Assembly (NCBI GenBank): GCA_023078555.1
Contig: CM041202.1
Span: forward strand, 1,298,022 to 1,362,021
Direction of reading: 5' to 3'
DNA from: Ulva prolifera
Lineage: Eukaryota > Chlorophyta > Ulvophyceae > Ulvales > Ulvaceae
Length of the DNA: 64,000 nt
Position 1 is the first letter of the stretch, and the number at the start of each line of letters is the position of its first letter. Both the position numbers and the translations under genes were made by a program. The notes beneath the pieces were generated by a model. That model was not told the origin of the DNA. It saw nothing but the letters and a program-made list of their open reading frames with translations, and ran no database searches. Shown in pieces: positions 11,473 to 62,741 of this stretch.

Positions 11473-12880
11473 GCTGGACGCGTAGATCTATGTGAATCTT
11501 CGCATCTGTGCATTTGATTGCATGACCTGATGGAGCTGTGTCATGAAAAGCCCCGGTTTTTGTCATCTGGGTCCACTAGCCAGTGTGAGCGGTGACAAAA
11601 TTGACCACTTGCCGACGTAAATGTACTCGGTGCATGTCTTCCAGCGCATGGTTCTGAGATGCAAACATACGATCATGCAGTATGCCGCCATCGATGGCTG
11701 CTTGCCACAGCTTCCCCACAGCCACAGCACAAGCCAAAGCAGCGTGAACCATGCCACATCATAGGCAATTGAAGAGCTATAGCTATGCGCACGGGACATG
11801 CAATGACTCGGAGACAAGCCGCGAGCAATGCGTTGGCTTGCGCATGCGCCCGCCCACCAGAGCATTCGTCGTCAACTAGCATGGATTGCGCAACGGAATG
11901 CCGTAAAAAATATTTCTGAAGTCTTACGCATGGACGGGGGGAGGTCATGCTGCGCCCGCAGGTACGTATCGTCGGACCTCGAACCGCAGCTCTGGAGGAA
12001 GCACCTGGAAGTCGACATATCGTCGTTTATACGCTATTCTGTGTACAATTTATATCTTCTATTCATTTCTGGGATGACAGGGGTGATGGTGCGACAGCAT
12101 GGCCTGTGGGTGGAGAAGGGGGAGACATCAGGCGCTCGAGCACGTCAGATCATGTGCTGAGTATCGGTACCTTGTATACAGCGCAGTGCAGCTTTAAGTA
12201 TTGAGAGCAAGTCAAACATGACGATTGCATCGCGCAAAACAAGCAATCCTGCTGCCGACCTTGTTCCGCGAGCTTGCACAAACAGATACTACAAGCTGGC
12301 GCTTCAACAGCACGTAAGTCAGCATATGCTGTCTTTCTCTTTTGTTTCAATAGCTCGCCAGCGCTGTTGATCAAATGGTGTGTGCCATGCTTGTGGTGAA
12401 GTTTGAAGCACCTGTGGCCAAACTGATGCAATGACCTCCTATGCTACTTGTGTACAGCAACGCGCAAGTTCAATCAGCTGCAAGCAGAAACACTGCTAAT
12501 GAAATTCTATCGCAGCCTCACATTATTACGCTGCTGACCAAGACTCACGAACCACGGCATGCTTGCATGCTTACTGCCAAAGCCAAAGTCGCGACGCCAT
12601 CTGCAGATGGCGCCACAGCTGTAGCCTGCTACGTATACATTGAACGCGAGCAGGCATGTGCGGGATCGCGCATTGGAAAATCATAGCTTCTGTGCGCCGA
12701 GCACTGCCTCATGCAGATCACAGGAAGTGGCCCTGGCTGCTTTTTTTATGTCGCGTATTGAACAGAGTATGGTTCGCTCGACATAGAGTCCGAAGAGATG
12801 CGTTACAATGGCCAGGCACTGGTGATGGTGGGCTTTGCAAAGGTGAACCACCCCCGCCATAAACATGTGTTGCTGTGATT

Positions 12881-13367
12881 GTGTTACAAGGACAAAGGCA
12901 GCAAGGCGGGCAGCACCGCGAAAGAAGCAAACACACGAAGCAAACACCGAGACACCCGCGCACGCGACACCCACCACGCCCAGAACATCCGGAGTCCATC
13001 ACCGGGAGTCCATCACCGGCGCAGCAAACGACACAGATCCGCAGACCGCCAAGCACACACCCACACACCCATACACAAACGCACAGATCCCATGGCCTAC
13101 ACACCACAACACAACCGCCAACACCACAACGCCCGCCGCCGTACGACAGGGCCACACCCAACACACTGCTTCTTGAGGCCGCCCATCCTGGCCCCCGCCC
13201 GACTGCCGGGGGCCGCCCTAGCCCCAAACCCCACCCCCACCCCCCGAGCCACAGCACACCACGCCAGCCCTGCACACCGCCGCGTAGCCCCGCCGGCCCA
13301 CGCCGCACCGTACCCAGGACAATGCATCGCCCAAGCCGTCTCCGCAGTCCCTGCACTTGCCAACGAA
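12881..13367 (-). mobile_element. 487-bp retroposon of the CCTTGTAACAC-tail family
   Basis: TGCTGTGATT occurs at 12871-12880 and 13368-13377, flanking a 487-bp insert. On the minus strand the insert is GT-rich and ends GCCTTTGTCCTTGTAACAC. The tail is shared with many loci (17.7, 25.6, 29.75, 29.87, 31.5, 45.8, 51.2, 60.0 kb). The body is low-complexity G/T-rich with no coding domain, so it is probably a non-autonomous retroposon mobilised by a LINE. The unit-B copy is 36410-36867. Confidence 0.75.
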
Positions 13368-14084
13368 TGCTGTGATTTTGTGCGCATCACGTCTACTTCA
13401 AGTTCGTTACGCGCTTCTGATTCGAGTTCGTGAGGAAACTGCATCAGACGGCCTGCATCGCTTCGACTTCGGAACAGATTTCATTTGTATCTTCTGTGTC
13501 TCTGCCTGTCGTTGTGTCCGGGCTCCAAGTTCCTGTTCAGGCTGTGCACCAAGTCCGCTGCCATGACATCTGCGCCGCAGTCTTTCAGACTACAATGTGA
13601 AGATATCGCCATATATAAGGTATACCTTATTTCACGCGAACAATCAGTCCTCGCTGTCGAAGCATTCATCAGTGAGCAGATCAACGATTTGAAAGCAGGG
13701 CTCTATAGTGTCCTTTTTTCCATCACGGACACAGATGGAGCTCAGGCTCAGCTTTGACAAGAGTATTCGTGGACCTGTTTGGGAAGTGTCGCTTCGTATG
13801 TATCATGGCCACAGTGCCATGTAGTCTGTGCTGGAGCTCTGCCATGCAACATTGGGCCATACAATACGAGAGATCCGAGCTCAGGTAGTTTTCCGCACCT
13901 TGTGCAGGGCACACGCCGCTGTTGACTATGGCTGATCTCATCTGCTATAGCTAATGGCCATCCCTTCGTCGCCAGATATTAATTGATATCTTAAGATCAG
14001 GGCAGCGTGGACCAGGATGCACAAGGAGCACAGGCTGATGGTACTGATCAAGCACAGAAAATGCGCTAGCCCGTTGCTGGGCGT

Positions 14085-14345
14085 GCTGTGTTGCGCAGCT
14101 CCGTCGGCTGCTGGGCATGCGGTGGTTGGCCGCTCGAGCTCGGTGCGCTGCTGGCCATGCTGTGTTGCGCAGTTCGGTCGGCTGCTGGGCATGCTGTGTT
14201 GCACAGCTCGGGCGGCCACCGGGCAAGCTGTGTTGCGCAGCTCAGCCGGCTGCTACGCATGCTGTGTTGCGCAGCTCGGTGCAACGCTGGGTATGCTGTT
14301 GTTTTGCGCAGCTCGACTTGCTGCCGGGCATGCGGCACTGCCGTG
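14085..14345. repeat. 34-bp minisatellite, about 7.5 units
   Basis: Diverged units of the form GCTGCTGGGCATGCTG followed by TGTTGCGCAGCTCGGTCG repeat head to tail. All frames on one strand stay open (Ala/Gln/Ser or Cys-rich), which produces the long shadow ORFs at 14017-14673 and 14088-14636. The unit-B copy is 37618-37886 and has a 6-bp palindromic insertion. Confidence 0.9.
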
Positions 14346-14597
14346 CTGCACTACTCCTGGACCTGTGACGCACGGTCCCGGGGCTCCCATGCAAAGCACG
14401 TGGTCGAGTGGGAGAGACAGCACAGCCGTGCCTCCGGGGTCAATGTTAACGTGCTGTGCTCTGTCTGGTACGCTATGCACGGCACCGTACATGGAACACT
14501 ACGTTGCTCCAACTATGCACCAGGCCCCGGCATCATGTGTCTACATGCATATGCATATGATGCAAGCGGATGGTGCTCGGGCCTGGTGCCCAGTGGG

Positions 14598-15413: not shown

Positions 15414-15419
15414 ACGCAA

Positions 15420-17280: not shown

Positions 17281-17289
17281 TAATCATAA

Positions 17290-17756: not shown

Positions 17757-18737
17757 ACTCTCTTGGCTGCGGCCTTACGCAGATCACAGTTCACAGTTCC
17801 AATGCAGCCTGACTCATATCCTGACTCATATCCTGACTTGGAGGTCAGCCACCACGTGGTGGCACACCACCACTGGTGGCACGCCAGCTTGCAGGTGAAG
17901 GCACCAGCTGCACCTACTGGCAGTGTCACACCACACGGATGCACCCACACCTCCTGCCTCCTGCCTCCTGCCTCCTGCCCCCTGCCTCCTGCCACGTGGG
18001 ACGTGGGACGAGGCGAGGCGAGGCGATGTGAGACGGTCATACCCCCCAGCCCAGGCCATCACACAGCAGTGGGCAGCCGCCCTACAGCCCCCTCCCCCGC
18101 CCGACTGCAGTGTACATGTGCGCCTCCACTCTCACGCAAAGCATCAGTTGCAGCCCCCTCCAGGCACCTATTTGTGTTAAGCCCCCATTCAGGCACTGAT
18201 ATGTCTGAATCCCCCAACAGGCACTCGAGTGTGTTGAGCCCCCGTCAGCCACTGATATGTCTGAAGCCCCCCTCCTGCACCACCGGACACTGACTCCCGC
18301 CTGCCTTGAGCTGAGCTTACTGTGGACCGCTAGCTGAGGTTATTCCGACCACAGAACCATATTGGGCTCCAGAAACCAGTTGCCCGGACGGGTGTGACAC
18401 CGATCTGTACCACAGACTCACGAGAGTCTGAATTTTGGACAACCGAGGATGGCAGAAGGCAGGCAGGGAGGCAGGGCGAGCCTTTCGGACGTGCCTGGTG
18501 GCCAACGAGCGGCGAGGGGTCAACGTCGACGCAGTGCACGCACATGCACGTGTGTTGCGCGGATGGCGGCCGCGAGTCGGGAAACACTGCAACACCAGCC
18601 TTGAGCGCAAGGATACAATGAACCAGTCCAGCGCATCCACGCCACAGCCGCATGCAGCGCACGCAAAACCCATGGCGCCCCCGCAACCAGCACAAACACC
18701 CAGAGCGGGCATGTGTGTCCCAGCTATTAGTAGTCAT

Positions 18738-18975
18738 GACCACTAATTATGTTATAACCAGTCCTGAGCTGATCATCAGTCCTGAGCTGGTCACCGTCGG
18801 GCCGGAGGCCATTGCGGATCAGCTGCTCAGCACTCTGAGGCAGCTAGCGCCGATGGCAGCACCACCGCTTCGGGAGGCCCATCGGCTGTTGACGCGCGCG
18901 GGGGCGGCTTTCAAGCGGGACCACGCTGTACCACTGCAGCTAGGCCAGTGTGACGAAGTCACCTCTCGCCCCATG
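18738..18975 (+). CDS. Central exon of the unrecognised family (copy 2)
   Basis: M-T-T-N-Y-V-I-T-S-P-E-L leads into V-T-V-G-P-E-A-I-A-D-Q-L-L-S-T-L, ending R-P-M at 18973-18975 before a GTATGT donor. The shared part starts at 18788; the part upstream differs from copy 1. The ORF stays open to 19200 if the donor is ignored. Downstream exons of this copy are broken. Confidence 0.35.
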
Positions 18976-19256
18976 GTATGTCGTGTGTGCCCCGGATTGG
19001 GCGCTGCTTGCTCATCGGTTACCGGTGAAATTGAGCTCTGGCTGACGAGATCGCACTGTGGTTCCGGTTCGGGTTCCAGTCCGGCGGCACTGGTTCGGGG
19101 GCGCCTGACTCACACTCGGAGTGTGCGCTTGCTCGGCAGTGAGTGTGAACTCGAGCTGATTATCTCATGCGATCACCGTGCTTTCAGTCTGCTATGCTAG
19201 TGTGCATGTGATCTGCAGACGCTACACGTCGCCGTCAGCATGGGTGGGCTGCTGCA

Positions 19257-19523
19257 ATGCAGGTGCTCTGGCAACGAGCAGCAGAGGCCGAGGATCTTGG
19301 AGTTTGTGTTCGTTGAAACAATTCTATGGTTGCTTTGCAAGTGGCTGAGGATGGAGGGAAGCCCGCTGATGCGAATGTATGCATGTTCATGCGTGTGGGG
19401 CGTGAGGTTGCCAGGTTCCGATTGGTGTTGAGTGGCCATGTTAGATGCCAGTCTCCACTGCCCTCTCGCGAGTGCGTGCGTGTGTGCGCGGAAGCTGCCC
19501 GTCTTGAGTTCCGGTCGCTGTGA
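19257..19523 (+). pseudogene. Conserved family segment with TGA (copy 2)
   Basis: M-Q-V-L-W-Q-R-A-A-E-A-E-D-L-G-V-C-V-R, then TGA at 19314-19316, then V-A-L-Q-V-A-E-D-G-G-K-P-A-D-A-N-V and M-F-M-R-V-G-R-E-V-A-R-F-R-L-V-L-S-G-H, to TGA 19521-19523. Same frame and same break position as in copies 1 and 3. Confidence 0.35.
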
Positions 19524-19549
19524 AAGTCATGTTTCCGGTGCATGCGCAG

Positions 19550-19961
19550 AGAAGCGCATACTGCAGTCGGCCACACAAGTCGACTTGCCACAGCTGCCGG
19601 AGCGGCCACAACATGATCGGGCTGCCGGATGAGGGCATGGTCAAGATGCGATCTCCTCCCGTGCGTGGCAATCTGCTTCACCCGCTCCAACGATGTGCAC
19701 AGCACCCACACGCCTCAACAACACTAGCAGCTCTGTCGACTCCACCAGGGCTGCCGCTGAACTGGCTAAATGGATGATCACACTCCCCCCCATCCCAGAT
19801 CTGCTGCTGCTGCTGCCGTTGCAACTGCCGACTCTGCCACTTCCGACGATGCCACCACCGAGGATGCAGTTGCTGGGGCGTCCACAGATGCGGCTGCGGC
19901 TGCCGAGGCTGCCACGAGTGTGGCTGCTGCTAGCAAGGCTGTTTCAGCAACAGTTGTCTAG
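19550..19961 (+). pseudogene. C-terminal exon, inactivated copy 2
   Basis: Compared with 8723-9180 it has a 12-nt in-frame deletion removing most of the basic patch, a CGA-to-TGA nonsense change (19628-19630) and a 1-nt deletion in the AAAATGG run near 19771 that shifts the frame. The Ala-rich end then resumes in the original frame from 19770 and keeps the TAG stop. Confidence 0.6.
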
Positions 19962-20060
19962 CTTGGTAGGGTGGGGTGACAGCGGCGCTGCTGCATGCTG
20001 CATGCGACTTGCGGTGATATAATCCAACGATGGATTACTGCTGGTGAAGTGTTTGGAACG

Positions 20061-20348
20061 TTACTTTGCCCAATCAGCTGATCTACCTTGCAAAGCAGAC
20101 TTCGCGCGAATCGGCAGAGATTGTGTTGTCTTCCATTGTGCCGTGTTCGTCTGCACCCGGCGACTCTTCTGTGACACATTTCGCCCGCGATCGCCCCGCA
20201 CCAAGCCGGGTGTTAAAATGAACTCCATGTAGCTTAGGCTCGGTATCGCTGAAGCAGTCCCTGCGCCTGCAGTGAGGGCCCTACTTTGTCCATGCACTGA
20301 CGCCACTGCAGCCACCAACACACGCGCTGCTATGAGCCCGGATGCCAC
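20061..20348 (-). CDS. Putative secreted protein, signal-peptide ORF (copy 2)
   Basis: Opens M-A-S-G-L-I-A-A-R-V-L-V-A-A-V-A-S-V-H-G, aligned start to start with the ORF at 6424-6705, with a hydrophobic core and small residues at a plausible cleavage site. The rest (M-E-F-I-L-T-P-G-L-V-R-G-D-R) is not conserved with copy 1. Function unknown. Confidence 0.35.
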   Translation of the reverse strand: MASGLIAARVLVAAVASVHGQSRALTAGAGTASAIPSLSYMEFILTPGLVRGDRGRNVSQKSRRVQTNTAQWKTTQSLPIRAKSALQGRSADWAK

Positions 20349-21699: not shown

Positions 21700-24600
21700 G
21701 ATAACCTCGAGCCGGCCAGCGGGGCTGCGCATGTGTGTATGTCCTCGTTGCGCTGACACGGGCCCAGCTGCGTGTGTAGATACGCACAGAAGAGTGAACG
21801 GCAGTTGACATCCAGAACAAAGGAATCTCTTCCGGTAACAGATAGCAGTGAGCGTGCGTCACAGGGCCATACCTTCGGCAAAGATGGAAGCCAGAATGTC
21901 AGCTGGCACAGCCCTGAAGTGTGTGTGTCACCAGATGGTTCTGACCAGTTCAGCCGTCCTGGTCAGACCAGGACTGACATCATCTAGAGGTTAAACGCAA
22001 ATTTTCTCCCTATCTAAGACACGGCGCGGTGCAGAATATTAAATGAACGGGCTTGGCTGTCCGAGCACTTACACATGGGAACCGCGGCGCATGCAAGACG
22101 AACTCAGGCTTGATATTGAACATAGCTGCATGCCTGCAGCGCCAGCACTTCAAACTCAAATCTGTGCTGATCAGAACAACAGCCGAATGCTTTGACTGTG
22201 GCAGCTTGGCGTGGCTGATGTAGCACAGAGAATACACTCGAGACAGCAATGTTGCATATTGCAAGGACAGCAGCTCGGCCGGCAATCCAAGATTTTCATT
22301 CCCGTGCGACGACCGAGTACCAGAATGTATATGTATATCTGGGCGTAGGACTCGAGCAGTGATTTGGTGGCAGCTACAGAAGGGTCAAAGACCGCTGCCG
22401 AATGGACACAACACCGGCAGACGCAGATTGCATGTTGCAGGTTCGCAATTTGTCACAGTGTAATTTGCTGCATGCCCGTGGCATGAAGTGACTGTACGAC
22501 GAGCTACGAGGCGCGCGTGAGAGCTGTGCATGATCCCGCCCGCGAGAGCTGTGGCCGTTAAACTCAAGATATTGCGCACCACTGTAATTAAGAATCTGTA
22601 TTTTTGAAAGCCGAAAATTCAATATTATCGGCTCTGTGCGCATTAGCAAGAGAGGTCGCTGCAGGTGCTTACCTCTGGACCTCGGAATGCTGCTCAGGAG
22701 ATATATAGCACCAGGAACTGGAGACAGAATCTTTCGTATTGCTTCTTCTACATTGACGGTGGGTGGTAGAGATGATGGTCCTACAAAGTGAGCTGAGGCA
22801 AGCGATCAGGCATAGCAACAGGCGCCACCGCGTGCGCTGAACAGCCATGCTTGTGGTATGCGTTCAAGCCCGGAGTCAGTTGTTCAGAATGGCGAAAGCT
22901 CCAAGACTAAATCGTATTGTTCTAGTAATCCTGCTGCCGATCGTGTTTCGCGGGCCTCTGACAGCCGGATGCGAACAGCTGATGCAATGCTAGCGGCAAC
23001 GAGGTCGGACCGAATTGCCTGAAATGGAGCCTGTAAATGCTTCGGCAGCGCTGTTGAACAGTATTGCTTGCCATGCTTTCGGTGGAATCTGCAGCAGCGC
23101 GTGTGTAGTGCACCTGTGGCCAAACTGATGCACGCACTCGACCTGGCCACCTGCAGTTGTCAAGTATTGCAAAGCCCTACGTATACGGAACAAATGTATG
23201 GGAACCGAATTCTTGTTTCATGGCAGCCTCGCATAAGTATACCGCTGACAACAAAACATGCAGTACTGGCAGTCCTGCATACTTGAGTTTAGACGCTGAC
23301 AGCCACAGTTTGCTACCTTGCCCGTGTACTGCGTCGCATGACACCAAGTCTAGCAAACATGTAAGAGGTCGCAAAGTGCACAGGGATAGCACGTGTACGC
23401 GGAGAACTGCCTCATGCCGATCAAGGCAAGTGGCCGCGGCTGATCATTGTCCGTGTCGTTGTGGACACCACAAAAGACAGAGAATTCGAAGAGATCTGCA
23501 TCGATGCTCAGGTGCTGGTGATGATTGTCTTCTGAAGGCGAGTCGCCCTCATGGGCTTGGTATGCAGTGTGTTTGTGCTCCCGTCACACAGTCGATTTGA
23601 CATCTTTAGGCATGTTCGGCCTGCCGACATCATCTCGAAATCGGTAATAGGTTCAAGTCTGAGGTGTTTGCCTATGCCTGTCCTTGTGTCCGGGCTCGTA
23701 TTCCTGTCTCTCTAGATATCTCTGTGCGCTGCTGCTTTGAACATTGCGCACAAGGCTGTCAAGGTACACTTTACAGATGCCATCAGAGCTTTTCTCTCGC
23801 GATCAATCATTTCTCGCTGTCTAATCGCCTGGCAGGGAGCTGAATAACAACTTGCGGGATTTCGGTGCATGAACCTGTGTACACCTATAGCTACATGCGG
23901 CCCAAGCTTTGAACACTGTTGGCTTTGAACACTGTCGGCAGCTGAGATGCCAATCGTGGACCTGCATGCCGACGCTGGCCCGGATACCAAAAACTAACCT
24001 GATCGTGATGAAAGACTGAGGCTATGCAGCTGGCTATGGGGTGTTGCGAGGCAGGGCACACTTCTGCGCATGTCTAGACTCTGCATGATGCGAGCCCGAT
24101 TGAGATGGGTCACAACTTACCGCTGATGTGCAGTGCAAGCTCTAGGTTGATGGGGTCTCGAGCTCCAATCATGTGGAGTTTCTGGGCTGGTTTGCTCTGC
24201 GTTGATGCGCATGCATTGGAGGGTGCCACGAAATGTGGTGAAGGGGACACTCGTCCGTAGACCTAATAAGGGATGCCCCGCACAGTGGGTGCTGCACTCT
24301 GTGGCTCCGAGGGTGGCCAGCAGTTTGCAGCGCGACATTGCTTCCACCTCAGGCTATCCTGCTTGTGGGATGTGTGCGCTTGAAGTAGCGCCGGATGGCA
24401 TGGCCGGCTTTCAGGTCCAATGTATGCGCGTTTGTGCTCAAGGAAGGCTGACCAATTTCCGAATCTGCTGCACGCTTGCAGATCAGGAGGTGCCTGTGGG
24501 TTGCTGCGGATGGTGCATTCCAGCGGTACTGGTGAGGAGCAGCTGCAGTGGCCGCACCTCGAGCTCGGCCGGTTTGAACATGCAGATTCATGCGGCACGG

Positions 24601-26135: not shown

Positions 26136-27068
26136 GGTAGCTACGCAATGCTTATCTTGTTTGACTGCGACGCGTGCCCGTGCGCTGGCGGAGCACGTGT
26201 CTGCCCGTGGGCAAGCCGTGAGCCAACCCCTTCAGCGCCTTTTATTGTGGTCGTCTATTCCCTTTCAGCTGACAATATTAATGTGACTACGCCTTCAGCG
26301 CCTACATGGGGCTATATTACAAAAGAGACATAGGGACGTGTCCCTCCATTTTTTCAGAAGAGGGAACCGAAATTAGATAAACACGACTTTAGTATGAACC
26401 TTATCGGCGTTGCAATTCGCAGCAGACTTCGAGAAGGCAACAAGTCGACGCGGATCGAATGTCCCATCGAGAGATGCTGTGTCAGGGTTGTTGCACCCCC
26501 ATTTTTCACGGGGGGAGTCCTCGTAGCAGTCTGCGCTCGTCATCGGATTTGCCCATGGCCAGCGACCGATGCCACTGCAGCTGCATCAGTATTTTGTAAT
26601 TTACAATGTCACTGCAGCTGAATGCGGTGGGACTTCCTGGTGATGTGCTGAATGCCTACGGAGAACATGTGCCTAAAGTGCCTACGAGGGAACAAACTTT
26701 TTGGTTGCGCCATCATCTACAGTGCATGGCCATGACGTCTGTCGCATGCCTTTTCCATATGTTCAAGGACAGAGCAAGCAAGGCAGGTAGCACCGCGAGC
26801 AACAACCAGGGGGTCCGCACACCCACGCCATCAGCCTCACGCAGCACATACCAACACACCCGAGCAACGTCAGCACCCGCCGTTTTTATGTGAAACAAGT
26901 CTGCATCATAGGACAGCGGTCCAGGTTCGCAAGACAGCATTGATGTCCCCATGAGCTGGCCACACCCGACTGAAAGCAACTGCATGACAAGCGGTGTACG
27001 CATGCGTCGACGCCGACATATGGCAGGCAGCACGGCTGATGTCATACGGTGCACCTGACCGCACTACT

Positions 27069-29260: not shown

Positions 29261-29439
29261 CCGGTATACCGGTATACGTAGGCGCCTCGGTCCTGAGCGG
29301 GTCGGCGCTGCCGTGTCATTGATGACGCCGCTGCCGTGTTACTCCGCCGCTCAGGGCTGCTCTGTTCGGGTACAGTATAGCAGCGGGAGGTGGCTACGGT
29401 TGGAGATTGGGTTGGGGTATGGCTACTGGGACCGCGAGC

Positions 29440-29758: not shown

Positions 29759-31211
29759 TCCCATACTGGTATGCGCTGCGTGTTGCTGCTGGTTGCGTGG
29801 GTGTGCGGTTCCCCTGGTGTGCGGTTCCCCTGGTTGTTGCCCGCAATGCTACCTGCCTTGCTCGCTTTGTCCTTGTAACACACAACCATACTTGTGTCTT
29901 CCAATTAGTCCGCCAGGTCAGGACAAGTCATCGCCTCAGGTAGGCCAGATCTCTAGCCTCAGGTCAGCGCACCATGGCGCAACAATGACCTGTGCCGCAG
30001 AAAAACAGAATGCAGAAAACTGCCAGTTTACCAGTGGGTGTCAGTGCGCGTAATGTAGTGTAAAGTGCAAGGTACCGTATTTGGCACATGTGCACCTTCA
30101 TGGCTGTGCGTTCCGCAAGCATGCACACACATCAAGGAGGGCGACTTGATTGAATGCATCCCCCACCTGTTCCACGAGCGGAAGAGAGTCTGGGAACCGA
30201 TTGCCGGACATCGAAAGATGGCTGCTGTCAAGCAGGGAGTGCACCCCCCACCTATAAGGCGCCTGGTGCCCAATGATCAGAGAAGGGTGGCCGTCAACAT
30301 CGTGTACATCAATGAGCAAGCATCGTGTGTCCCGGCCGAGCCTCCGAGCCCGTGTGCTAGTAGAACCGAGGCACGCCGGAAAGCAGGCCCTGAAAGATTC
30401 TCTCTGCAGCTACTAGGTTCAGCTGAACCTTCAAAGTTTCACTTTGAAAGCTTCATTTTCACAGTGTGAACTCTGGATTGCTTCTTGTGCAGCTGTGGTT
30501 CTTGTTGCTCGTCCACTCGTCTGTGCATGTAAAGTCTTTGCCACAGGAATTGCCACTAGTAGCACTGAGTTGTCCTTACAGCAGCACCACAGGAATTGCG
30601 CAATTCCGTACGTACATGTGGACAGTTGAGGCCGCGAGTATAGACACAGCATTGGATATAGCTGCAATTGCGGCCGCCCATGCAGACACAGCCGGCGCAA
30701 AAATACTCCCACCATCCACCCGTGAAGCCTGCTAGCACATCTATTGCTTCCAGAGCATGCATATGCCGGCCGGGCACCTACGACACGGGCCGCCTGGCAC
30801 ACCACAGTGGCGCCTACACATGGCACGTGTGCGTTACATAGACCAAGCCGGAGAGGCCGGTAGCACCGCCAGCGCAACGACGCCAAAGCCACCAGTGCAC
30901 GCGCATGCATGACAGCAGCTGCCCACCCATGCTGAACCCAACCACGGCACCCTAGCACAGCATGACAGACGCACACCCACCCACGCACGCACAGTGCCAC
31001 AGCCACAGCAGCGAAATCGAGCACCCTCCAGACCCGGCAGCCCCCGGGCCCTTACACCGAGTGGCACCGCCGCCCGCGCGGCCGCGGCGGCCCAAGCCGG
31101 CAGCATGGCCGTTAGCCCCCAACGCAAGCATCCACGCCCCCCATCCCGTCCTCCAGACCCAAACCTCCATCCCCCTTCGCACATCCCTGCAGCTGCACAG
31201 CCCCGCCGCTG

Positions 31212-31213: not shown

Positions 31214-31256
<43 letters not shown>
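31214..31256. repeat. 43-nt poly-C tract
   Basis: An uninterrupted run of 43 C. The corresponding part of unit B instead has a 15-nt poly-G run (61563-61577) nearby. Length is unreliable in any sequencing method. Confidence 0.9.
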
Positions 31257-31760: not shown

Positions 31761-32879
31761 CCGGAGCTCTCCGGAGCTCCTAGGCCGAAGACGCGCCGCG
31801 CGGCGCGCGACTCAAGTCTGTTACATAAGAGCCGCGACTCATTTCGATTTCTGTCAGCCTGTGGTGTAGAATGGCGGTGGGTAGATTGACGCTTGTCGCG
31901 ACTGATGAGCGGCGAGCTGGCCGCGGGACCAAGCTTTGCAATCTGGATGAGCGGCGTCGTACGAGCTGCGCGTGCCAGCTCGTGGCTGTGCGTGCCACGA
32001 TATCAATATACGCCGCGTCTCACAGTCGCCTCCAGAGCAGCCCTCCACGACCGTTTTATTTGTGGAGGGGTCTCCGATGCCGTCACCGTTGCGTGGCCTT
32101 CTGTTTTTGCTTTCGAGCGGAGTTTGGAGACCGGCCTGAGCTCTGCTCTTCTGGCAACTCTACGCCCTGTGTTCACTGAGATGTTGCCATCGGCCTGGGA
32201 GACAACAAGTATGGCCAGGTGGGTGCGTACGACCACGCGAGCACCCTGAGATCATTGGAAGTCAGCTGACCGGCCATACATGGCGCGTGAAGCCATGCTC
32301 CACTTTTCTTCGTGTCGGGGGCTTTATGCCGGTCGAAAGCGTCGACGTGTCAGAGCCCCAGGGCTGCGAATCACGATAGATGTAGCCGCTCCAGCAAAGC
32401 ATTAAGTTTCTCGGGAAGCCGACGCCCATATCCACACTTGTCTTGCCTTGAGCTGAGCTTACTGTGGACCGCTAGCTGAGGTTATTCCGACCACAGAACC
32501 ATATTGGGCTCCAGAAACCAGTTGCCCGGACGGGTGTGACACCGATCTGTACCACAGACTCACGAGAGTCTGAATTTTGGACAACCGAGGATGGCAGAAG
32601 GCAGGCAGGGAGGCAGGGCGAGCCTTTCGGACGTGCCTGGTGGCCAACGAGCGGCGAGGGGTCAACGTCGACGCAGTGCACGCACATGCACGTGTGTTGC
32701 GCGGATGGCGGCCGCGAGTCGGGAAACACTGCAACACCAGCCTTGAGCGCAAGGATACAATGAACCAGTCCAGCGCATCCACGCCACAGCCGCATGCAGC
32801 GCACGCAAAACCCATGGCGCCCCCGCAACCAGCACAAACACCCAGAGCGGGCATGTGTGTCCCAGCTATTAGTAGTCAT

Positions 32880-33117
32880 GACCACTAATTATGTTATAAC
32901 CAGTCCTGAGCTGATCATCAGTCCTGAGCTGGTCACCGTCGGGCCGGAGGCCATTGCGGATCAGCTGCTCAGCACTCTGAGGCAGCTAGCGCCGATGGCA
33001 GCACCACCGCTTCGGGAGGCCCATCGGCTGTTGACGCGCGCGGGGGCGGCTTTCAAGCGGGACCACGCTGTACCACTGCAGCTAGGCCAGTGTGACGAAG
33101 TCACCTCTCGCCCCATG
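32880..33117 (+). CDS. Central exon of the unrecognised family (copy 3)
   Basis: Same sequence as 18738-18975, ending R-P-M before GTATGT. In this copy the downstream C-terminal exon (33692-34137) is intact, so copy 3 could be functional if the segment at 33399-33665 is spliced or tolerated. Confidence 0.4.
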
Positions 33118-33398
33118 GTATGTCGTGTGTGCCCCGGATTGGGCGCTGCTTGCTCATCGGTTACCGGTGAAATTGAGCTCTGGCTGACGAGATCGCACTG
33201 TGGTTCCGGTTCGGGTTCCAGTCCGGCGGCACTGGTTCGGGGGCGCCTGACTCACACTCGGAGTGTGCGCTTGCTCGGCAGTGAGTGTGAACTCGAGCTG
33301 ATTATCTCATGCGATCACCGTGCTTTCAGTCTGCTATGCTAGTGTGCATGTGATCTGCAGACGCTACACGTCGCCGTCAGCATGGGTGGGCTGCTGCA

Positions 33399-33665: not shown

Positions 33666-33691
33666 AAGTCATGTTTCCGGTGCATGTGCAG

Positions 33692-34137: not shown

Positions 34138-34210
34138 CTTGGTAGGGTGGCGCTGCTGCTTGAGGCTTGCGCTGATGGAGTACTGCTGGTGAAGTGTTTG
34201 GAATGTTGCT

Positions 34211-42000: not shown

Positions 42001-42615
42001 GCCGAACCAGACCACGCCATGGTCTGCAAGAAGGTGGCAAAGGAGACCCAGATGCGCCATGATAACCTGGCTCGTGCCTTGCGCCTGGTCGCCTCTTACG
42101 CCGGACTGCAGTCTGCCCTGGAGCCGCTCTACCGTGCCCTCGCGAGGGGCGCGGGTGTTGAGCTGAATCGCCGCGGGGACGTCGTCGTGGTCATGCCGCG
42201 CCTGGAGATGGCGGCCGTGGACGTCGTGGTCACGCATGCGCCCGCGGCCTCGTACGTGGCCGCTGCGGCGCGGGAGACGGGTGCGACGGCGGAGCGGGCG
42301 GAGGACAGGAAGCGGGACCGCTTCCGGCGGGACGTGCCTGACCATGCCGCGTTCCGGTTTGTTCCGTTTGCGGTCGAATCGTGTGGCTTCATGGGCAAGG
42401 CTGCCGTGAGGTTCGTCGGTCAGTTGGGGGATGTGGCCGCTGCCAGTGGGCGCATCTCCAAAGGCGCGTTTGTCCAGTGGGCGCTGCGGGTGTTGTCGGT
42501 GTCATTGCAGCGCGGCAATGCGGATATGTATCGGAAGTCTGGGCTTGTCATCTCTCGGGAGCAAGGGTTGCGATATGATGCGGGCCTGGAGGACGCGATC
42601 CTGCCGGACTGAGTT
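39019..42615 (+). CDS. LINE polyprotein: reverse transcriptase plus restriction-like endonuclease, one in-frame TAG
   Basis: 1,197 codons plus TGA if the TAG at codon 887 is ignored; 886 residues otherwise. The ATG is preceded by an in-frame TAG at 39010. Residues 1-240 are basic and Pro/Ala/Lys-rich with no zinc finger seen. Reverse transcriptase spans about 460-730: E-K-P-D-G-G (480-485), catalytic D549 in V-D-M-K-N-A-F-N, G-V-R-Q-G-D-P-L-G (604-612), Y-L-D-D (639-642, catalytic D641/D642), N-P-A-K-C (674) and G-T-P-L-G (708). After the TAG, a zinc knuckle C987-x-C989-x9-H999-x3-C1003 precedes a PD-(D/E)XK-like core with D1054, D1068 (V-D-V-V-V-T-H) and K1098, then P-F-A-V-E-S. This order is that of RLE-type LINEs. 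No apurinic endonuclease domain. The stop separates polymerase from endonuclease, so this copy probably cannot retrotranspose by itself. Confidence 0.93.
41677..41679 (+). other. In-frame TAG between the RT and endonuclease domains
   Basis: GGG-TGG-TAG-GCG-GAT in the LINE; the fragment at 27069-27208 has GGG-TGG-GAG-GCG-GAT. A single G-to-T change explains the stop. Frame and domain content continue undisturbed for 310 codons. Confidence 0.9.
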
Positions 42616-43439
42616 GTGAGTGCGGTTGTAGTGTTCGTGTGTGTGTTGCAGTTGATTCGGATGAGATTCGGTTTCAGTGTTTGTTTTCTCCCGTTCACTC
42701 TTTTGTAAATAACACTCTGGGGTATCACAGTGGCCTGCCGCAAACATCGATATCCTTGCACTGAGAATTGAAAAAGTCAGTTTTGGGGCATATTTGGAGG
42801 TGGACAGCACCACACATGGATCCCACCTGCCACATAATTTACATGTGCTACTCCTACAAGTGCCAGGCAAGCCAGCAAGCTGCTGGAATTGGGGGCTGGC
42901 ATGGCGGGCTCGCTCGGCCTCACTCTGCTGAGTCATGCCAAACCTGGATGTGAACACAACGAGTTTGGCAGAAAACCAGAGACAAAAACAGCAAAGGATC
43001 TTCCGTAGCAACCCAACAGAATGCAATTGCGTACACGCATGCATCGAAGCCAACTTATCTTGCGAGATAGGGCACACATCATAAGTGCATGTCAACGTGT
43101 TGTAACGAATCCACGAACTGTGAAAATTTCCACGCAGGCGTGATGGGCCGCCACTGGTGGTCCACGCAGGAAGCGCGAAGCACCTGCGCCGCCAGAGCTG
43201 CAGCGAGCTGCTTCAACGCAAGCGTAGCCGGCTTGCCCTGAAGATATGCACACGTCTACAGCTGTAGGATAGCCGGTTCTGGAGAAATTCTTCTGCGGTA
43301 CTTGCCTGTACCCAGTTGCTCGTCTGTAGCAACCTTCTGCAGCAACCACTGGCATGTGTTCGGCGTATCGGCCGAGGCATTGCCACGCCACAAAGAGATA
43401 TCTCAAAGACCCGCGCCCATCGCCGTGTACGCAAGAACA

Positions 43440-43491: not shown

Positions 43492-45411
43492 ACGCAAGAA
43501 CACGATGCGCACCGCGTCAGAACGCACGCGATCTCGGAATTGCCCGTCACGGTCGACAAAGATCTTGCTCGCAAGTCGCAACAGCGACAGCGACAGGCGT
43601 TCCCGCGAAGGCCAGCCGAATATTAATGCCTTGTGAACATGTATGAATGTAGCCGCTGACTCATCTGTTGCACACTTGCGACTTGCGAACGAGCCTTGCC
43701 GAGGGATGACAGCACCGGTGGCCTCCGGTACCGTTTTAAAAATTGTACGAACGATGTCGCAGGCGTTGCCGGCCTACGACGTCGCAACTCGAATTTACGA
43801 ACAGCTGTGAACATGGTACCGTCGACAAGTGAAAAGTTCCCAGCACCGCCAGCCCGCACCAAACAGAAGGGGGAACACGTCCAGAATCACTTGTGACGGA
43901 AACGTACACGGTACACGAAGATGATTACAGGCAAGCTATGTTGTAATTGGCTGAGTGCAGGGGGGTCCGACGTCCATGAAAACGATCCAAATGCAAAGTT
44001 ACCACTCCAGAGACACTGAACTCCACAGAATGGCGTCGCAAACTTGAGATGCCATAACCATAGCTCTGGACACTCATTAATTCAATGTGTCATGACGCGA
44101 CGCATCCATCATGATTGCTTGATGGGACAGACATTGATTTCGGGTGATGATCATGAGAGCGTCCAGGCTGGTCACATATGCCGAACAGTAGTCAGCCCGC
44201 CCGCATCCAGCGCGGGCGGATATATCGCTTGACCCAGTAGTGGCCACTGGACAGAACAACACCGGACCGTGCTCATCCACGCATGCGTGGGTGGTGCCTG
44301 AACCGCTGAAGGCGGTCGATCGTACCGGTACCATTTCATTTTGCGAGGCAACAAAGGGTATCGCTGTTGCGACATGTTGTGTGTATACAAGATCTCCATC
44401 TGGGAAATGTAAACTTTATTTTTTCGTCGACGCACATGGCTGCACATCCCTGCGTGGCCACGCGTGATTGGTGCCTGCCGGATCATCTCGGAGATGCAGG
44501 ATGTATGTGAGCCTGTCGCAGGCTGACTCGCAGTGTGATGCTTTAGAAAGCCGCAGGAGACGGGGCAGGTAGCACCGCACGAACTACACTACACGCGCCA
44601 GGCATTCCTTTCGCAACCATGAATCATGTCTGTATGTAGCTACATACATGTGGGTCTGGTTGCTTGCGGTTTTGGATGACATTTGCAATGTACAGATTGA
44701 CAATTCCGGAGACAGGGAGTTGCGCTGACACATGACCTGTCTGTCACACAACCGGCAAAAACTTAAGCCATTGTGTGTTTGGTGATCCTGGAGTTTCGGG
44801 CCCTCACATGGGGCTCAACGTTTTGAACCTGCAGGATACATGCTGTCAGTGATGTCAGTGATGAGGTCAGAAGATTCACGAGGAATTCAGCTGGGGGACT
44901 GGAGCATGCAAGATTCCACATGCAACATTGTGTCTGTCACAGTTTCACGGTGAAACTATGCTATGCACACAAATTGTGCATTATCCGGGTGCCGGTGCGG
45001 GTGCACCGGCACCGGATCCGGTGCCGGATCCGGTGATGCTGCATGCAATTTCACCAGCCTGTACACAGCTGCCAGGTGATTGGCCTGTGTCCTTCCACTG
45101 TGCACCACATGGTTGCATGCAGGAATCTTGCGCAGTATGACAGTATGATCACAGTCATATGTGGTCCACAAATACACTTCGAATGAATGATCATGGCCTT
45201 GCTTCATAAGTTATGGTGAACCCATAGGATCATCATTGCCTGGTCGGAGGTCAATCACATGTCCAGAGATCTCCAAAGAGATGGGCTCTTGATGCCGTGC
45301 AGTGCTTCATCGTCAATCTTGTCTGGTGGGCAGACAGCAGCTCAAGTGGATGCCCTGGAGCAGCCACCTGACCAGCGCGCGCGCAGGCCCACACTTCAAA
45401 CACAGCCTGTA

Positions 45412-50230: not shown

Positions 50231-53006
50231 TGTCCATCTGAGGGCATCGGACCGATAAACGAAGTTGCCCCTGCACCGGTGTCGGGTCGCTTTGCACCAT
50301 TTCCGGGGCTTCCACCCAGAAATTAGATATGAATATTCAGAATTGTTACATATGATCGGGCCTGACGACCCAACACTGCCCTGCACGTGTTCAATGTTGC
50401 AACTGCAACAATTGTACATTTCCCCCACCTGGTCGAGATGGGTGCTTGTCTTGCAACCCAGTGGTATGGCTGGTACACCACCAGTACTGGATTGCCACAA
50501 AAGCTGGGTCCTCTGAGATCTGAGGCTGGCCACTCCTCCAGCAGCCCCGGTCCGTTTCAGCATCGATCCGACCACTGCCTCTCTGCACTTGCGCTGGTCC
50601 TGTGATCCGTGCCCCCCACTTAACGCGACACAAGTAGCCGCGACCTTCACCAGCCCGCCCACGCACTGCAAACACCCCCTTCCTGTTATGCCCATGCACA
50701 TGCACATATGTGCCCCTGCATGCCAGAGTGACTCTTGCGCATCAGGATCCGCCCCCGGCTCCTGCATGCTGAAAGCACCCCTGAGCCAGTACGTAAACTG
50801 CCCTCAGCGCACGAGCCCCACGAGCCCCAACTTCAAGAGGCGCACCTTGGCCCCCCCACCCCGGGCCAGTGATGCTTCTTCCAGTGATGTGAGCTAGTGG
50901 ACCCCGTTTCAGACAAACACAGCACACAGAACCCTGACAAGTCAGTGTTCACCCTACTCTGGCAGCTGCAGGTTGGAGACAATGGCGCTGGCGCCATGTC
51001 AGCCCATCCCATCTACAAGGTATGTAAATGGTGTGAGTCCGTTGTGGGTCCCCCTCCCGAGTGTGACCGCAGACCGTTGTGAAGGATACCAGAACTTGAC
51101 AGATGTTAAGGACCTGTGTACATGTGCTCCTTGCCCACACAAACAATGTGTTTGCTCGCGGTGCTACCAGCCTTGCTTGCTTTGTCCTTGTAAAACACAA
51201 ACAATGTGAGGGATTGTTACAAAGCATGGGTGCCCTTACGGTCGATTGCGTCTCGACGGCCGCGTCAGTATCTCTGAGATAGCGCTGTGACCAGAACGAT
51301 AGCCACGCTGCAGCTGGAGCCGACCTCCACCGCGTTGCACAAGTTCTGATGATCACGAAGTCGCGTTGCACAAGGTCAACCGGGTATCGGGTACCGGCCG
51401 ACACAGCTAGCGCGCGCACTGGTCTCGACCATGATATGTGTTGTTGACGATGTATGCGTGCGTTCTCACGCCACAGACAAGTTCGCTGCTGCGGCACTCC
51501 AAAGCTGACGGCTGGTGATGTTGCACCATGTTATATGCTCACAGCTACGCAATTTATCATCACAAAACAGTAAACGGGGGAAGTCAAACACCACAAAAGA
51601 GTCCCATCCGAAACAACAGCCACCCACATAAGGCCACACTGCAACCGCTCACACACCTCATGATCAGTCCGGCAGGATCGGGTCCTCCAGGTAGCTACGC
51701 AATGCTTATCTTGTTTGACTGCGACGCGTGCCCGTGCGCTGGCGGAGCACGTGTCTGCCCGTGGGCAAGCCGTGAGCCAACCCCTTCAGCGCCTTTTGTT
51801 GTGGTTGTCTATTTCCTTTCAGCTGACAATATTAATGTGACTACGCCTTCAGCGCCTACACGGGGATATTTTACAAAAGAGACATAGGGACGTGTCCCTC
51901 CATTTTTTCAGGAAGAGGGAACCGAAATTAGATAGACACGACTTTAGTATGAACCTTATCGGCGTTGCAATTCGCAGCAGACTTCGAGAAGGCAACAAGT
52001 CGACGCGGATCGAATGTCCCATCGAGACATGCTGTGTCAGGGTTGTTGCACCCCCATTTTTCACGGGGGGAGTCCTCGTGGCAGTCTGCGCTCGTCATCG
52101 CGATCTGCCCGGCGACTGATGCCACTACAGCTACATCAGTATTTTGTAGTTTACAATGCCACTGCAGTTGAATGCAGTGGGACTTCCCGGTGATGCGCTG
52201 AATGCCTACGGAGAACATGTGCCTAATGTGCCTACGGGGGAACAAACTATGTGGCTGCGCCATCATCTACAGTACATGGCCATGACGTCTGTCGCATGCC
52301 TTTTCGATGTGTTCAAGGACAAACCAAGCAAGGCAGGTAGCACCGCGAGCAACAACCGGGGGAACCGCACACCCACGCAATCAGCCACACGCAGCACATT
52401 CCAACACACCTAAGCAACGTCAGCACCCGCCGTATCTATGTTAAACAAGTCTGCGTCATAGGACAGCGGTCCAGGTTCGCAAGACAGCATTGCCGTCCCC
52501 ATGAGCTGGCCACACCCGACTGAAAGCAACTGCATGACAAGCGGTGTACGCATCGACGTCGACATATGGCAGGCAGCAGGGGTGATGGCATACGGTGGCG
52601 TGCAAGATTGCCAACGATGTGGCGAAATTCGATGTGCAACAAAAGCGTGCTGCCCACTGGCACAGCGGTGCACCGTGGCGGGCTTATCGATAAATCGACG
52701 AGGTCAGGCTTGAGCATAAGGAAGCCGCACGGTTCTGAAGGAATGCCTTCTTAAGAAGCTTGCGCCGTGCCTGTGTGTGCCCTTTCACTCTACCGCAGTA
52801 AATTTATAGAGAAGTGCGGGGTGCTCCAGAGAGCTTCCGAATTGAATGCGTCCTCACCCCATAGCTGGAGATGCGCCGCCACGAGCGCTGCTAGCGCAGC
52901 GCTGGCTCTGCGACCCGTCACGTCATGCTCATACAAAATCTTGAAATCTCAGAATCAACTGCGCACATAAAACCCTCGCCACGTGTAACGTGGCCAACCT
53001 GTTGCA

Positions 53007-57000: not shown

Positions 57001-57002
57001 TT

Positions 57003-57391: not shown

Positions 57392-59769
57392 GCTAGACGT
57401 TCCAAGTATACGGCCTTGCCCTGATTATAAAGGGCCGAAGGTCACACATCGGTTTCGTTTACACGAGAGTGAACGGGAGAAGGTAGACACCGCCGATGAA
57501 TGTCAGCTTCGAAAAGGTCAAATATTCGTGGTGCAGGACCCCCTGGACTCGTGTAGGATTCTGCAGACTGTTTTCACTTGCGCAGACATGCATGCGTCGG
57601 TAGCGCTGGGCACGCAGTGCGCAGGACCAATGGTTCGTGCGTAGCAAGGGCGACATGGCCACGTGTGCACAAGCGCTGTTGCGCCGCAGCTGCACGCAGA
57701 CTTGCAATTGGTGAACGGCAGCTTTCACGCATTGTGGCCACGCGTGGTCACATCACATCGTGGTCACGTGAACGCCCCTGCGTGTCCGGACATGTCCCCA
57801 CCGGATTCCCTATCCGGCCGGACAATATATCTGCTGGAGATGATGGGTGCGCTGCAAAGACAAAAGCCGCGAAACAGGTGGCACCACGAAGACACCGAGC
57901 ACCTCAAATTTGAGGACAGGTTTAAGGATAGGTTCATCGATCCTGCAGTGGCCAGCACATCTCACGCGCACGCGAGCCACGGCGAGCACTGCTGGCCCAG
58001 CAGCTCTTACACAGCAGGCGCCCAGTCCACACCAGCACGGCCGGATGTGTGCTTGGACGCATGCATGTGCACATATCCTGTTCCATTGAGACGTTTACGA
58101 ATCCGCAGACCCGCACTTGTCCTTTGACTGCAGCTTCTCAGATACACGCCATTTTGACTTGGCGACTCCTGGAAGTTTTGGGGTTTCTGACATGTGAATC
58201 TGCTGGTGTAAAAACTCAGAACTTGAAGACATACCAGGCATCGTGCGAAGATGCAGGAGGAACTCAGAAGAACAGAGCATGCAAGATTACACCTTGCCAG
58301 CATGCAATACTGGGTCACAGACACTATGCACATGCATTCCACTTGCCTGTGCGTAGCCATTGCATTACCCATGTCACACCTTGCATTACCGTGTCACACC
58401 TCCCACCTCCCACCCCTGCCAGTGTGGAGGCTCCCACCCCTTTGCCTCAACCCTGCCAGTGGTGCCTCCCACCCTTGCAACTCCCACATGTCCACTCTTC
58501 TGTGCAATAGCATATGTGCAGCATCCTTGCAATGGGATGTGCCAAGGTGAAGTCAGGTAAATCTGAATCTACTGCGCCATATCCTATTGGACATTGACAA
58601 CTCCGAATTAACAGGCCAAATATGCTGAAGGTCGCACATCATCCTGCTATCATGCCATCTGCACTGCCAGGCTGACCCTGATCCACTTTGCTCCAGTGCT
58701 CCACACAGCTGCATGCCTTGCTTGCTTTGTCCTTGTAATTAATTGTCAACACAGCTGCATGCACAACAGATGTGGTTGCATGCACGAGGGATATTGTGCA
58801 GTCATGTATGCACTCATGCATGATGACAAACACACTTCAAGAAAGCTTCACAGCCTTGCTGTGGTGCAGCCAATGGGCTTGCACAGCTGGAGGTGAACAA
58901 GAAGGCTAGAGGTACATCTCTTCAGGGATGAGCTGTCGAGGTCAACTGCAGTGCTCGTTGTCATGGTTTTCCAGTGGCTTGTCTCCAACCCGACTTGCTG
59001 TCAAAATCCATGCATATGATCAGGTGAGCTGGCTTGAAAGGCTCCTGCCATGCAACTGCAGTGGACACTGGAACTGGCTTTGCCAGAAGCTGGTACCAGT
59101 TGCCAGCCAATAAGAATCACTGCTTGTGACAGCAGGGTGAAATTGCTGTGCCCGGGCCCAAAAGAACACACAATTTGGGACGCCTTGACCCAAGGGAACA
59201 CACAATTTGTCATTGCAGGGACATGGGAATTGATCCACCATGACTGGCAGTTGCTGTGACTTACACAAACCACAGACTCTCGGAGAGTGTAACACACATC
59301 CCGGACCACAGACTCGACTCGGGATCACATGTTAGTGGAGTGTCTGTCACATCTATCAGCACAAATATCAGCACGGGGCAGTGTCCATGGCCCATCTACA
59401 CTGCTCAGGGCTAAACTGCCCGCGGTGTCCCCGCCCCTCCCTCGCTGACCGGGCTTAGGCTGCAGCACAGGCGCTTTCTTGGCCGGCGCGCGCCGCCTCT
59501 TCCGTGTGGCCCGGCGCCCAGACACATTCTGCTGGAGCTGGTCCTTATAAGTAATTACCGGTAGGCGCCTCGGTCCTGAGCAGGTCGGCGCTGCCGTGTC
59601 ATTGATGACGCCGCTGCCGTGTTACTCCGCCGCTCAGGGCTGCTCTGTTCGGGTACAGTATAGCAGCGGGAGGTGGCTACGGTTGGGGGATTGGGTTGGG
59701 GTATGGGAACTGGGACCGCGAGCCCCCCGGGCGGCTAGCGCATGGGGCCGGCTCCGGCCGGGCTGCCGG

Positions 59770-60053
59770 CTTAAGCCAATTGGGCCGCCGCGGCCGCGCG
59801 GGCGCGGGGGTGCGTGTGTTGAGGGGTTGAGCGGGGACGGGTGCGTGGGTGTGGTGTGGGGGTGTGTGGGTGGGTGTTCAGTGGGGCAGAGGCGCGGTGC
59901 TGTGTGCGGGTGCTTGCTGTGACTTGGCCCTGTCTTCGGGCGGATTCGAGGTGGCTGTCACTCTCCTGACGCGTGTGCTTTGGGTTGTTTGTGTGCTTCC
60001 TCGCTGACCTGGCGGTGCTACCGGCCCCTCCGGCTTTGTCCTTGTAACACATC
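59770..60053 (+). mobile_element. GT-rich retroposon (unit-B copy)
   Basis: Counterpart of 29440-29758, ending GGCTTTGTCCTTGTAACAC. Slightly shorter. Confidence 0.6.
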
Positions 60054-61337: not shown

Positions 61338-61382
61338 TGTGGCAATCCAGTGATATGACCGCTATACCACTGGATTGCCACA
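61338..61382. mobile_element. Palindromic mini-element, 45 bp, unit B only
   Basis: TGTGGCAATCCAGTGATAT, a 7-bp centre, then ATACCACTGGATTGCCACA. Exact 5-bp GCCCC at 61333-61337 and 61383-61387. Unit A (about 31135) lacks it, showing recent insertion. Confidence 0.88.
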
Positions 61383-61781
61383 GCCCCCCCTTCCGTCCCC
61401 CAGACCCAAACCCCCACCCCCCTTCGCACATCCCCGCAGCTGCACAACCCCACAGCCCTCCACCCCCGCGAAGATCCAACCCCCCACCCGACCAGAGCAT
61501 CCCCAGCGCGGCAGAACAGCACAGCAGCACCATCACCTGCTAAACCGCCTGGGAGGGGGTGTGGGGGGGGGGGGGGGATTTGTGTATCGCTTCAAGCGGA
61601 GGCATCAACAAGTTGTTTAGGCCTCCGTTGGCGTTGCATACGCTGGTTGCGGGCGCGATGCTAGTGGATGAGTTGGTGGATTTGTGTTGGTTTTTGTGTT
61701 CTTGCTGGTTTCGCGGTGCTGCCCACCTTGGCGCCTGTACCCTTGTGAAACTCGGCAGTGCACATGCAGAACCTCTGAACC

Positions 61782-61819
61782 GGTTTCTGTGTTTGCTTTC
61801 TCCCGTTCACTCTTTTGTA
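61782..61819 (+). mobile_element. 38-bp truncated LINE insertion with 20-bp TSD, unit B only
   Basis: An exact 20-bp duplication (61762-61781 and 61820-61839; starts ACATGCAGAA) brackets 38 bp: GGTTTCTGTGTTTGC followed by the LINE tail TCCCGTTCACTCTTTTGTA. Unit A (about 31510) has the single, uninterrupted site. Confidence 0.93.
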
Positions 61820-62741
61820 ACATGCAGAACCTCTGAACCAGCACTAGCTATAACTATAGTACTGGCAGCTGCCTGGTGCCTTGAGGGGTGGCGCCGCCTC
61901 CGACGGCGTGCATGAGCTCTTGTCGTGGATCATGGTGACAGAGGCGCCGCTGGCTGAAATATTTGATTGTTGTCCGTCTGCGGCAGCCGCTGTTCGAATG
62001 GCGATCGGTATGCTGGGTGTGAGGCACCCCCGTGACGTCACAGGCACTGCAGCTCGCGATGGAGCTCCTAGGCCGAACACGCGCCGCTACTCAAGTCTGT
62101 TACAGAAGAGCCGCGACTCAATTCGATTTCTGTCAGTCTGTGGTGTAGAGTAGCGGTGGACAGATTGACGCTTGTCGCGACTGATGAGCCGCGAGCCCGG
62201 GCCGGCCGCGGGACCAAGCTTTGCAATCTGGATGAGCGGCGTCGTACGCGCTGTGCGTGCCAGCTCGTAGCTGTGCGTGCCACGATATCAATATACGCCG
62301 CGTCTCACAGTCGCCTCCAGAGCAGCCCTCCACGACCGTTTTATTTGTGGAGGGGTCTCCGATGCCGTCACCTTTGCGTGGCCTTCTGTTTTCACTTTCG
62401 AGCGGAGTCTGGAGACCGGCCTGAGCTCTGCTCTTCTGGCAACTCTACGGCCTGTGTTCACTGAGATGTTGCCATCGGCCTGGGAGACAACAAGTATGGC
62501 CAGGTGGGTGCGTACGACCACGCGAGCACCCTGAGATCATTGGAAGTCAGCTGACTGGCCATACATGGCGCGTGAAGCCATGCTCCACCTTTGTTCGTGT
62601 CGGGGACTTTATGCCGGTCGAAAGCGTCGACGTGTCAGAGCCCCAGGGCTGCGAATCACGATAGATGTAGCCGCTCCAGCAAAGCATTAAGTTTCTCGGG
62701 AAGCCGACGCCCATATCCACACTTGTTCATGCTCCCGGCCG

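Follow-up and report, generated by a model that had tools for sequence, protein, structure and literature searches.

Palindromic micro-insertions in a tandem duplication of Ulva prolifera as probable excision footprints of CACTA-type transposons

Transposons of the CACTA group carry CACTA ends and create a variable 3-bp duplication (PMC4158355, PMC4423477; articles given by PMC number are cited, here and below, for the portions of their text that were available). The footprints of Ac/Ds, a hAT system, are palindromic and have been explained by hairpins formed on the flanks (PMC1978519, PMC4561436), and in a human T-cell receptor data set the palindromic (P) nucleotides measured 1–3 nt, with no palindrome longer than 7 (PMC3528771). 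According to a rice study, the excision of DNA transposons generally leaves overhangs of the element ends (PMC4423477). Here we analysed the small insertions that distinguish two tandem units within a 64,000-nt stretch of the Ulva prolifera genome (contig CM041202.1, positions 1,298,022 to 1,362,021; the whole of this stretch is called the window, and positions are counted from its first letter), and we related them to a repeat family with CACTA-type ends in the same genome. We conclude that the palindromic micro-insertions are probably the excision footprints of CACTA-type (CMC/EnSpm-like) transposons, left through flank hairpins that would have been opened off-centre.

Palindromic insertions between two tandem units

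The tandem duplication in the window comprises unit A (about 7976–32441) and unit B (about 33345–62726). We aligned the two units in ten blocks covering 19,267 columns, in which substitutions amount to 2.3% and indels number 75, 47 of them sized 4–40 bp. All 47 insertions were scored blind to the list of sites given by the initial annotation, and removal of the eight pure tandem duplications left 39 insertions for the test; a third partial paralogue block (18302–20105 versus 32444–34251) and the stretches between blocks lay outside it. For each duplication length k, the insert was compared with the flanks in reverse complement, its start with the left flank and/or its end with the right, and all equivalent gap placements were tried. 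A strict pass required a k of 3 bp and 3 or more palindromic nt, with 60% or more of the insert accounted for.

We found that 13 of the 39 insertions pass strictly. The controls gave far fewer: shuffled inserts passed 0.33 times on average (maximum 3), swapped flanks 0.94 (maximum 4) and random positions 0.41 (maximum 3), each over 400 runs, while a control with a forced 3-bp duplication reached a mean of 0.75 and a maximum of 5 over 1000 runs. The proposal of the initial annotation that palindromic A/B insertions exceed a shuffled expectation is therefore confirmed (13/39 against control means of 0.3–0.9 and a maximum of 5). The excess stops at a duplication length of 3 bp, with a single pass (1/39) at k = 4 and none (0/39) at k = 5; the 9, 14 and 15 passes at k = 0, 1 and 2 arise because largely the same sites satisfy a weaker demand. 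Mirror-image scars thus seem to account for a sizeable share of the small insertions in the A/B comparison. The footprints and related insertions are listed below; "new" marks those absent from the initial annotation.

9955–9960, unit A: 6-bp footprint AGG/CCT/AGG; strict pass, new
12601–12618, unit A: footprint with duplication CTG, left P stretch 9 nt, filler 2 nt, right P stretch 4 nt; strict pass
23178–23183, unit A: 6-bp footprint TAC/GTA/TAC; strict pass
26553–26558, unit A: 6-bp footprint CCA/TGG/CCA; strict pass, new
29264–29277, unit A: footprint with duplication GTA, left P stretch 8 nt, right 3 nt; strict pass
30404–30422, unit A: footprint with duplication CTG, left P stretch 3 nt, right 8 nt, filler CTACT (5 nt); strict pass
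30553–30616, forward strand, unit A: 64-bp insertion with a CACTA-type end piece, unit B being the empty site; new
30757–30762, unit A: 6-bp footprint ATG/CAT/ATG; strict pass
31797–31805, unit A: 9-bp insertion CGC/GCGGCG/CGC; strict pass, CG-only sequence
37176–37188, unit B: footprint with duplication ATT, left P stretch 6 nt, right 2 nt; strict pass
37439–37444, unit B: 6-bp footprint ACG/CGT/ACG; strict pass
37583–37597, unit B: footprint with 2-bp duplication AA, left P stretch 8 nt and right 7 nt, overlapping; passes at 2 bp only
37718–37723, unit B: 6-bp footprint TCG/CGA/TCG; strict pass
42739–42761, reverse strand: GAT/ATC/GAT form in the 3' part of the unit B insertion 38453–42981, compared with one other place (contig C3, where L007, L015 and L050 are the same locus)
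44936–44949, unit B: imperfect footprint around GTG, with a base missing at the left and an additional one at the right; strict fail
45179–45190, unit B: footprint with 2-bp duplication TC, left P stretch 3 nt, right 4 nt; passes at 2 bp only
51658–51663, unit B: 6-bp footprint TCA/TGA/TCA; strict pass
57702–57707, unit B: 6-bp footprint TTG/CAA/TTG; strict pass, new
57944–57948, unit B: 5-bp insertion CTG/CAG/TG.., left P stretch 3 nt; passes at 2 bp only, new
59771–59779, unit B: footprint with 2-bp duplication TT, left P stretch 5 nt and right 4 nt, overlapping; passes at 2 bp only, new

Among the sites that the initial annotation had called clear, those at 12596, 29261, 30400 and 37173 pass strictly, as do both sites to which it had assigned the simple X-rc(X)-X form, where rc denotes the reverse complement (51658 and 37718). 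The one at 37578 passes with a 2-bp duplication and not at 3 bp; 44933 fails the strict test and is recovered only by allowing a one-base loss at the left and a one-base gain at the right; and 61844, situated in a stretch excluded from the alignment, is weak. Of those described as fitting partly, 23181, 30755, 37441 and 31792 (CG-only) are retained, 45179 is retained at 2 bp only and 37008 fails. Eight of the strict cases are carried by A and five by B, so that the process is not lineage-specific, as had been claimed, but these data do not show it to be ongoing, as was also claimed.

The 13 strict cases fall into two forms. Eight are 6 bp long and of the simple X-rc(X)-X form, which needs only a 3-nt palindrome; in the other five the P stretch runs to 6–9 nt, the one at 31797 being that made of C and G only. 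The duplicated triplets vary (AGG, CTG, TAC, CCA, GTA, CTG, ATG, CGC, ATT, ACG, TCG, TCA and TTG), and TAA or TTA is not among the 13. In addition, the inverted arms abut: arms of at least 4 nt with a zero-length loop occur in 15 of the 39 insertions, against 1.6 after shuffling. Loops of 1, 3 and 5 nt are little in excess (5, 4 and 4 insertions against 1.9, 2.5 and 2.3 shuffled). Those of 2, 4 and 6 nt occur in 9, 10 and 7 insertions, against 2.1, 2.5 and 2.7, and since 8, 8 and 5 of these matches are zero-loop insertions, we read them as the interior of the same palindromes.

The form extends beyond the A/B comparison. An all-against-all comparison yielded 130 insertion alleles, 14 of which are tandem duplications, and 21 of the 130 pass; of these 21, 11 are A/B sites, and the remaining 10 alleles, from 8 sites, lie in copies of the CACTA-type elements described below and, once, in the insertion 38453–42981, at 42739. 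An overlapping census confined to the CACTA copies found that 6 of 52 insertion alleles pass with a 2- or 3-bp duplication, the 52 counting some indels in more than one variant. Of the six, three have a single carrier, against 12, 7 and 4 copies without the insertion, and are therefore gains.

A CACTA-type family and its element ends

The 64-bp insertion of unit A at 30553–30616 links the window to a transposon. It contains a 37-bp element end (30554–30590), behind which come a second copy of the left flank and some palindromic pieces. The 37 bp are identical to those of a genome repeat whose other copies start at the same place, with CACTAGTAGCACTGAG..., and have unrelated flanks. The ends of this repeat are CACTA-type termini, inverted at both ends (CACTA...TAGTG). 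In the genome sampled (88.9 Mb in 44 contigs, encoding chlorophyll a/b-binding proteins of the green lineage), 80 places carry such a terminus within one mismatch, 59 of them perfectly, whereas a reversed control pattern was found at none. The elements comprise a short class of about 2.8 kb and ten long end pairs of 11–15 kb. Two full-length copies of the same length lie at C5:7370585–7382248 and C5:7791575–7803238. In an 11.7-kb copy, open reading frames of 398 and 372 codons are present, and the translation of the latter matches DUF4218 weakly (E = 0.028, below the cut-off).

Firstly, the family has the duplication length of the footprints. The flanks share exactly 3 bp in 18 of the 26 elements with both ends read, the boundary in L053 being placed at the centre of a palindrome, and share 4 bp in none of the 26. 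Empty alleles of the insertion sites hold the triplet once. Among the eight elements that depart from this rule, three (L083, L100 and L102) represent one insertion in copies of a retroelement, flanked by TCA on one side and TCG on the other, while 29 empty copies read TCG once; because they occupy one retroelement site, they were probably copied along with the retroelement. In three more (L047, L054 and L081/82) the triplet emerges when the P nucleotides are discounted, L079/80 can be read as having lost one base of an end, and L066/67 is without a clear reading.

Secondly, palindromes of the same kind stand beside elements that are still in place. We collected 93 termini from the core pattern in loci L044–L125, merged identical ends to leave 82, and added the terminus in the window, giving a set of 83 from which some known ends, such as that at C3:6214043, fall outside. 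Of these termini, 65 are intact and 18 have their last 1–5 bases missing or altered. A perfect palindrome of at least 3 nt abuts the element at 8 of the 18 damaged termini but at only 2 of the 65 intact ones (Fisher p = 3.9e-5); the background frequency is 3.6% of 5229 flank positions. Of the two intact exceptions, one is the right end of L054, an element with palindromes at both junctions (5 and 4 nt) centred on the same CGA, and with a damaged left end. Likewise, the 5-nt palindrome of L053 is centred on its own duplication, TCC, and the 6-nt palindrome of L047 on ACT. The palindromes at damaged ends therefore tie those of the footprints to CACTA ends, and we read the palindrome-bearing damaged termini as elements that were cut and then resealed. 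Thus, a CACTA-type transposon family is the likely agent of the footprints. On different contigs, L086 and L088 have one damaged CACTA end and the adjoining flank in common, and this junction was therefore copied later.

Other repeats occur in the window. A 1396-bp insertion present only in A (10076–11471) has long GGGGGTCATCC inverted ends and is flanked by a duplication of 9 bp, TGCTGGACG; 9 bp is the size tabulated for Mutator elements (PMC4423477). Unit B shows at 50810–50818 an exact 9-bp tandem duplication, CACGAGCCC, as expected from the precise excision of an element with a 9-bp duplication. The 4.5-kb insertion of B at 38453–42981 resembles a long interspersed nuclear element (LINE): it is flanked by ACAA, and its open reading frame of 888 codons (39013–41679) resembles, by eye, a reverse transcriptase. 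As sources of the 3-bp footprints, the 1396-bp insertion was ruled out by its 9-bp duplication and the 4.5-kb insertion by its LINE-like nature, and inspection by eye revealed no CACTA ends in the remaining large A/B gaps. A 381-bp unit is repeated head to tail in 6.8 copies that are 99% alike (52–2631), a run of 43 C lies in A (31214–31256), and a short repeat, AAAAGAGTGAACGGGAGAAAACAAACACTGAAACC (or part of its complement), possibly of the short interspersed nuclear element type, recurs in unaligned A/B gaps near 27230, 31690 and 61790.

Mechanism and rival explanations

From the geometry of the insertions, the duplication length, the elements themselves and the palindromes at their damaged ends, we infer a sequence of hairpin formation, nicking, pairing and resealing. 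Insertion of the element would duplicate 3 bp. Excision would then leave each flank as a covalently closed hairpin whose tip lies at the boundary between duplication and element, and the hairpin would be nicked off-centre, often 3 nt and up to 8–9 nt from the tip, so that the resulting overhang supplies the P nucleotides. End joining would then unite the flanks, each with its 3-bp duplication, and would at times add some filler bases or lose a base. When both hairpins are opened exactly 3 nt from the tip, the overhangs could pair, because both derive from the same triplet and are complementary, which would explain the peak at 6 bp (8/13). Some breaks may instead be resealed onto the element, placing P nucleotides between the flank and a damaged CACTA end. 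The suggestion of the initial annotation that the insertions record cut-and-paste excision, with hairpinned flanks and a duplication of 3 bp, is thereby supported as an interpretation, its mechanism being a model. A stronger proposal, to which we would give slightly less than an even chance, is that CACTA transposition here is RAG-like, with flank hairpins exact to the boundary, opening by the host up to 9 nt from the tip with a preference for 3 nt, and some breaks resealed as open-and-shut joints, and that it is a leading source of small insertions in the genome. Open-and-shut joint is a name from V(D)J recombination, used here for comparison with the resealed ends.

Among the alternatives, a mixed origin survives best, but we consider it improbable. 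On this view the longer cases would be CACTA footprints, and the bare 6-bp X-rc(X)-X insertions would stem from a separate process resembling slippage, as might be supposed from the predominance of exactly 6-bp cases, for which a 3-nt palindrome suffices; however, the 6-bp form is also found in repeat copies elsewhere (AGG-CCT-AGG in L053, GAT-ATC-GAT at 42739), and the hairpin model itself predicts it through complementary duplication overhangs. Less probable still is templated insertion by polymerase theta, or snap-back synthesis, whereby the 3' end at an ordinary double-strand break folds, copies its own flank and joins. Such synthesis does yield inverted copies of a flank, and the complex A insertion at 30553–30616, with its second, direct copy of the left flank, is a hint that templated synthesis takes place. 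Nevertheless, a 3' end can fold back only with a loop, whereas the arms abut here and odd loop sizes are hardly enriched, and snap-back predicts neither a fixed 3-bp duplication nor a link to CACTA ends. Lastly, the excision of PIF/Harbinger elements or of their miniature inverted-repeat relatives is very unlikely: this other superfamily also duplicates 3 bp (PMC4423477, PMC4561436), but it targets TAA/TTA (PMC4423477), which matches none of the strict triplets, its Tourist-like members usually excise precisely (PMC4561436) and the element remnant in the window is a CACTA end.

Several observations weigh against CACTA excision as the source of the insertions. The strict test was failed by 26 of the 39 insertions, and the filler, including CTACTAG at 30404, resembles element ends no better than chance (P 0.43 and 0.29). 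For a density of 13 footprints in 19 kb, a stock of about 80 termini looks small, and fast turnover or other CACTA families would be required. At the element ends, 10 of the 18 damaged termini have no palindrome of 3 nt or longer right at the junction, and two of the eight that have one (L049 and L086) are CG-only. On the coding side, a search with the Transposase_21 (PF02992) profile gave no match in the genome, nor in any control genome, so that absence cannot be read from this result. The DUF4218 loci of the genome, at least 60 in number, are all below threshold, the highest score being 25 bits where the cut-off is 27; no fewer than three lie between paired ends of the CACTA-type family, and one archaeal control also matched below the cut-off. 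Finally, the initial annotation had called for elements with 3-bp duplications whose empty sites carry such footprints. A matching family was indeed found (CACTA...TAGTG, 3-bp duplications), with one end in an insertion of A and palindromes at its damaged ends, but no filled and footprinted alleles were found at one site among the three insertion sites compared. At the L044 site, in a dispersed repeat, none of the 27 junctions read has an insertion, and two have a base change; no insertion was present in the 29 junctions read at the L083 site or in the four aligned empty places of the L045 site. The search for joined-flank alleles covered 19 of the 26 element sites and scored 39 of 221 candidates, repeats crowding the list.

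Comparison with known systems

The kind of event described here is known, since palindromic hairpin footprints of Ac/Ds, 3-bp duplications of CACTA elements and P nucleotides have already been described. What is new, as far as we have seen, is the element family in which it occurs, the length of the P stretches and the resealing of ends; among the matches listed in a literature search that covered subscription journals little, and for which only parts of the articles were available, none described P nucleotides at CACTA ends. Element ends that remain in place beside mirrored flank DNA would record an intermediate of excision directly, and they can be counted in any CACTA-bearing genome. They would also provide a means of distinguishing transposon scars from other small insertions, as well as a natural test of hairpin opening in a lineage. 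In our judgement, the cutting chemistry of CACTA transposases is less settled than that of hAT.

The family resembles CACTA (En/Spm, CMC) elements in its CACTA...TAGTG inverted ends, its variable 3-bp duplication and the presence of 11–15-kb pairs beside relatives of about 2.8 kb. It differs from them in that Transposase_21 was undetected and DUF4218 stayed below threshold, and in its resealed ends with palindromes, which were not met in the available portions of the literature examined. With hAT elements (Ac/Ds, Tam3, Hermes) the insertions share palindromic footprints copied from the flanks, but the hAT duplication is 8 bp (PMC4423477), whereas it is 3 bp here. Finally, V(D)J coding joints offer the likeness of hairpins opened off-centre to give P nucleotides, and of ends that are resealed; in contrast to the 1–3 nt of the T-cell receptor set (PMC3528771), the P stretches here extend up to 8–9 nt.

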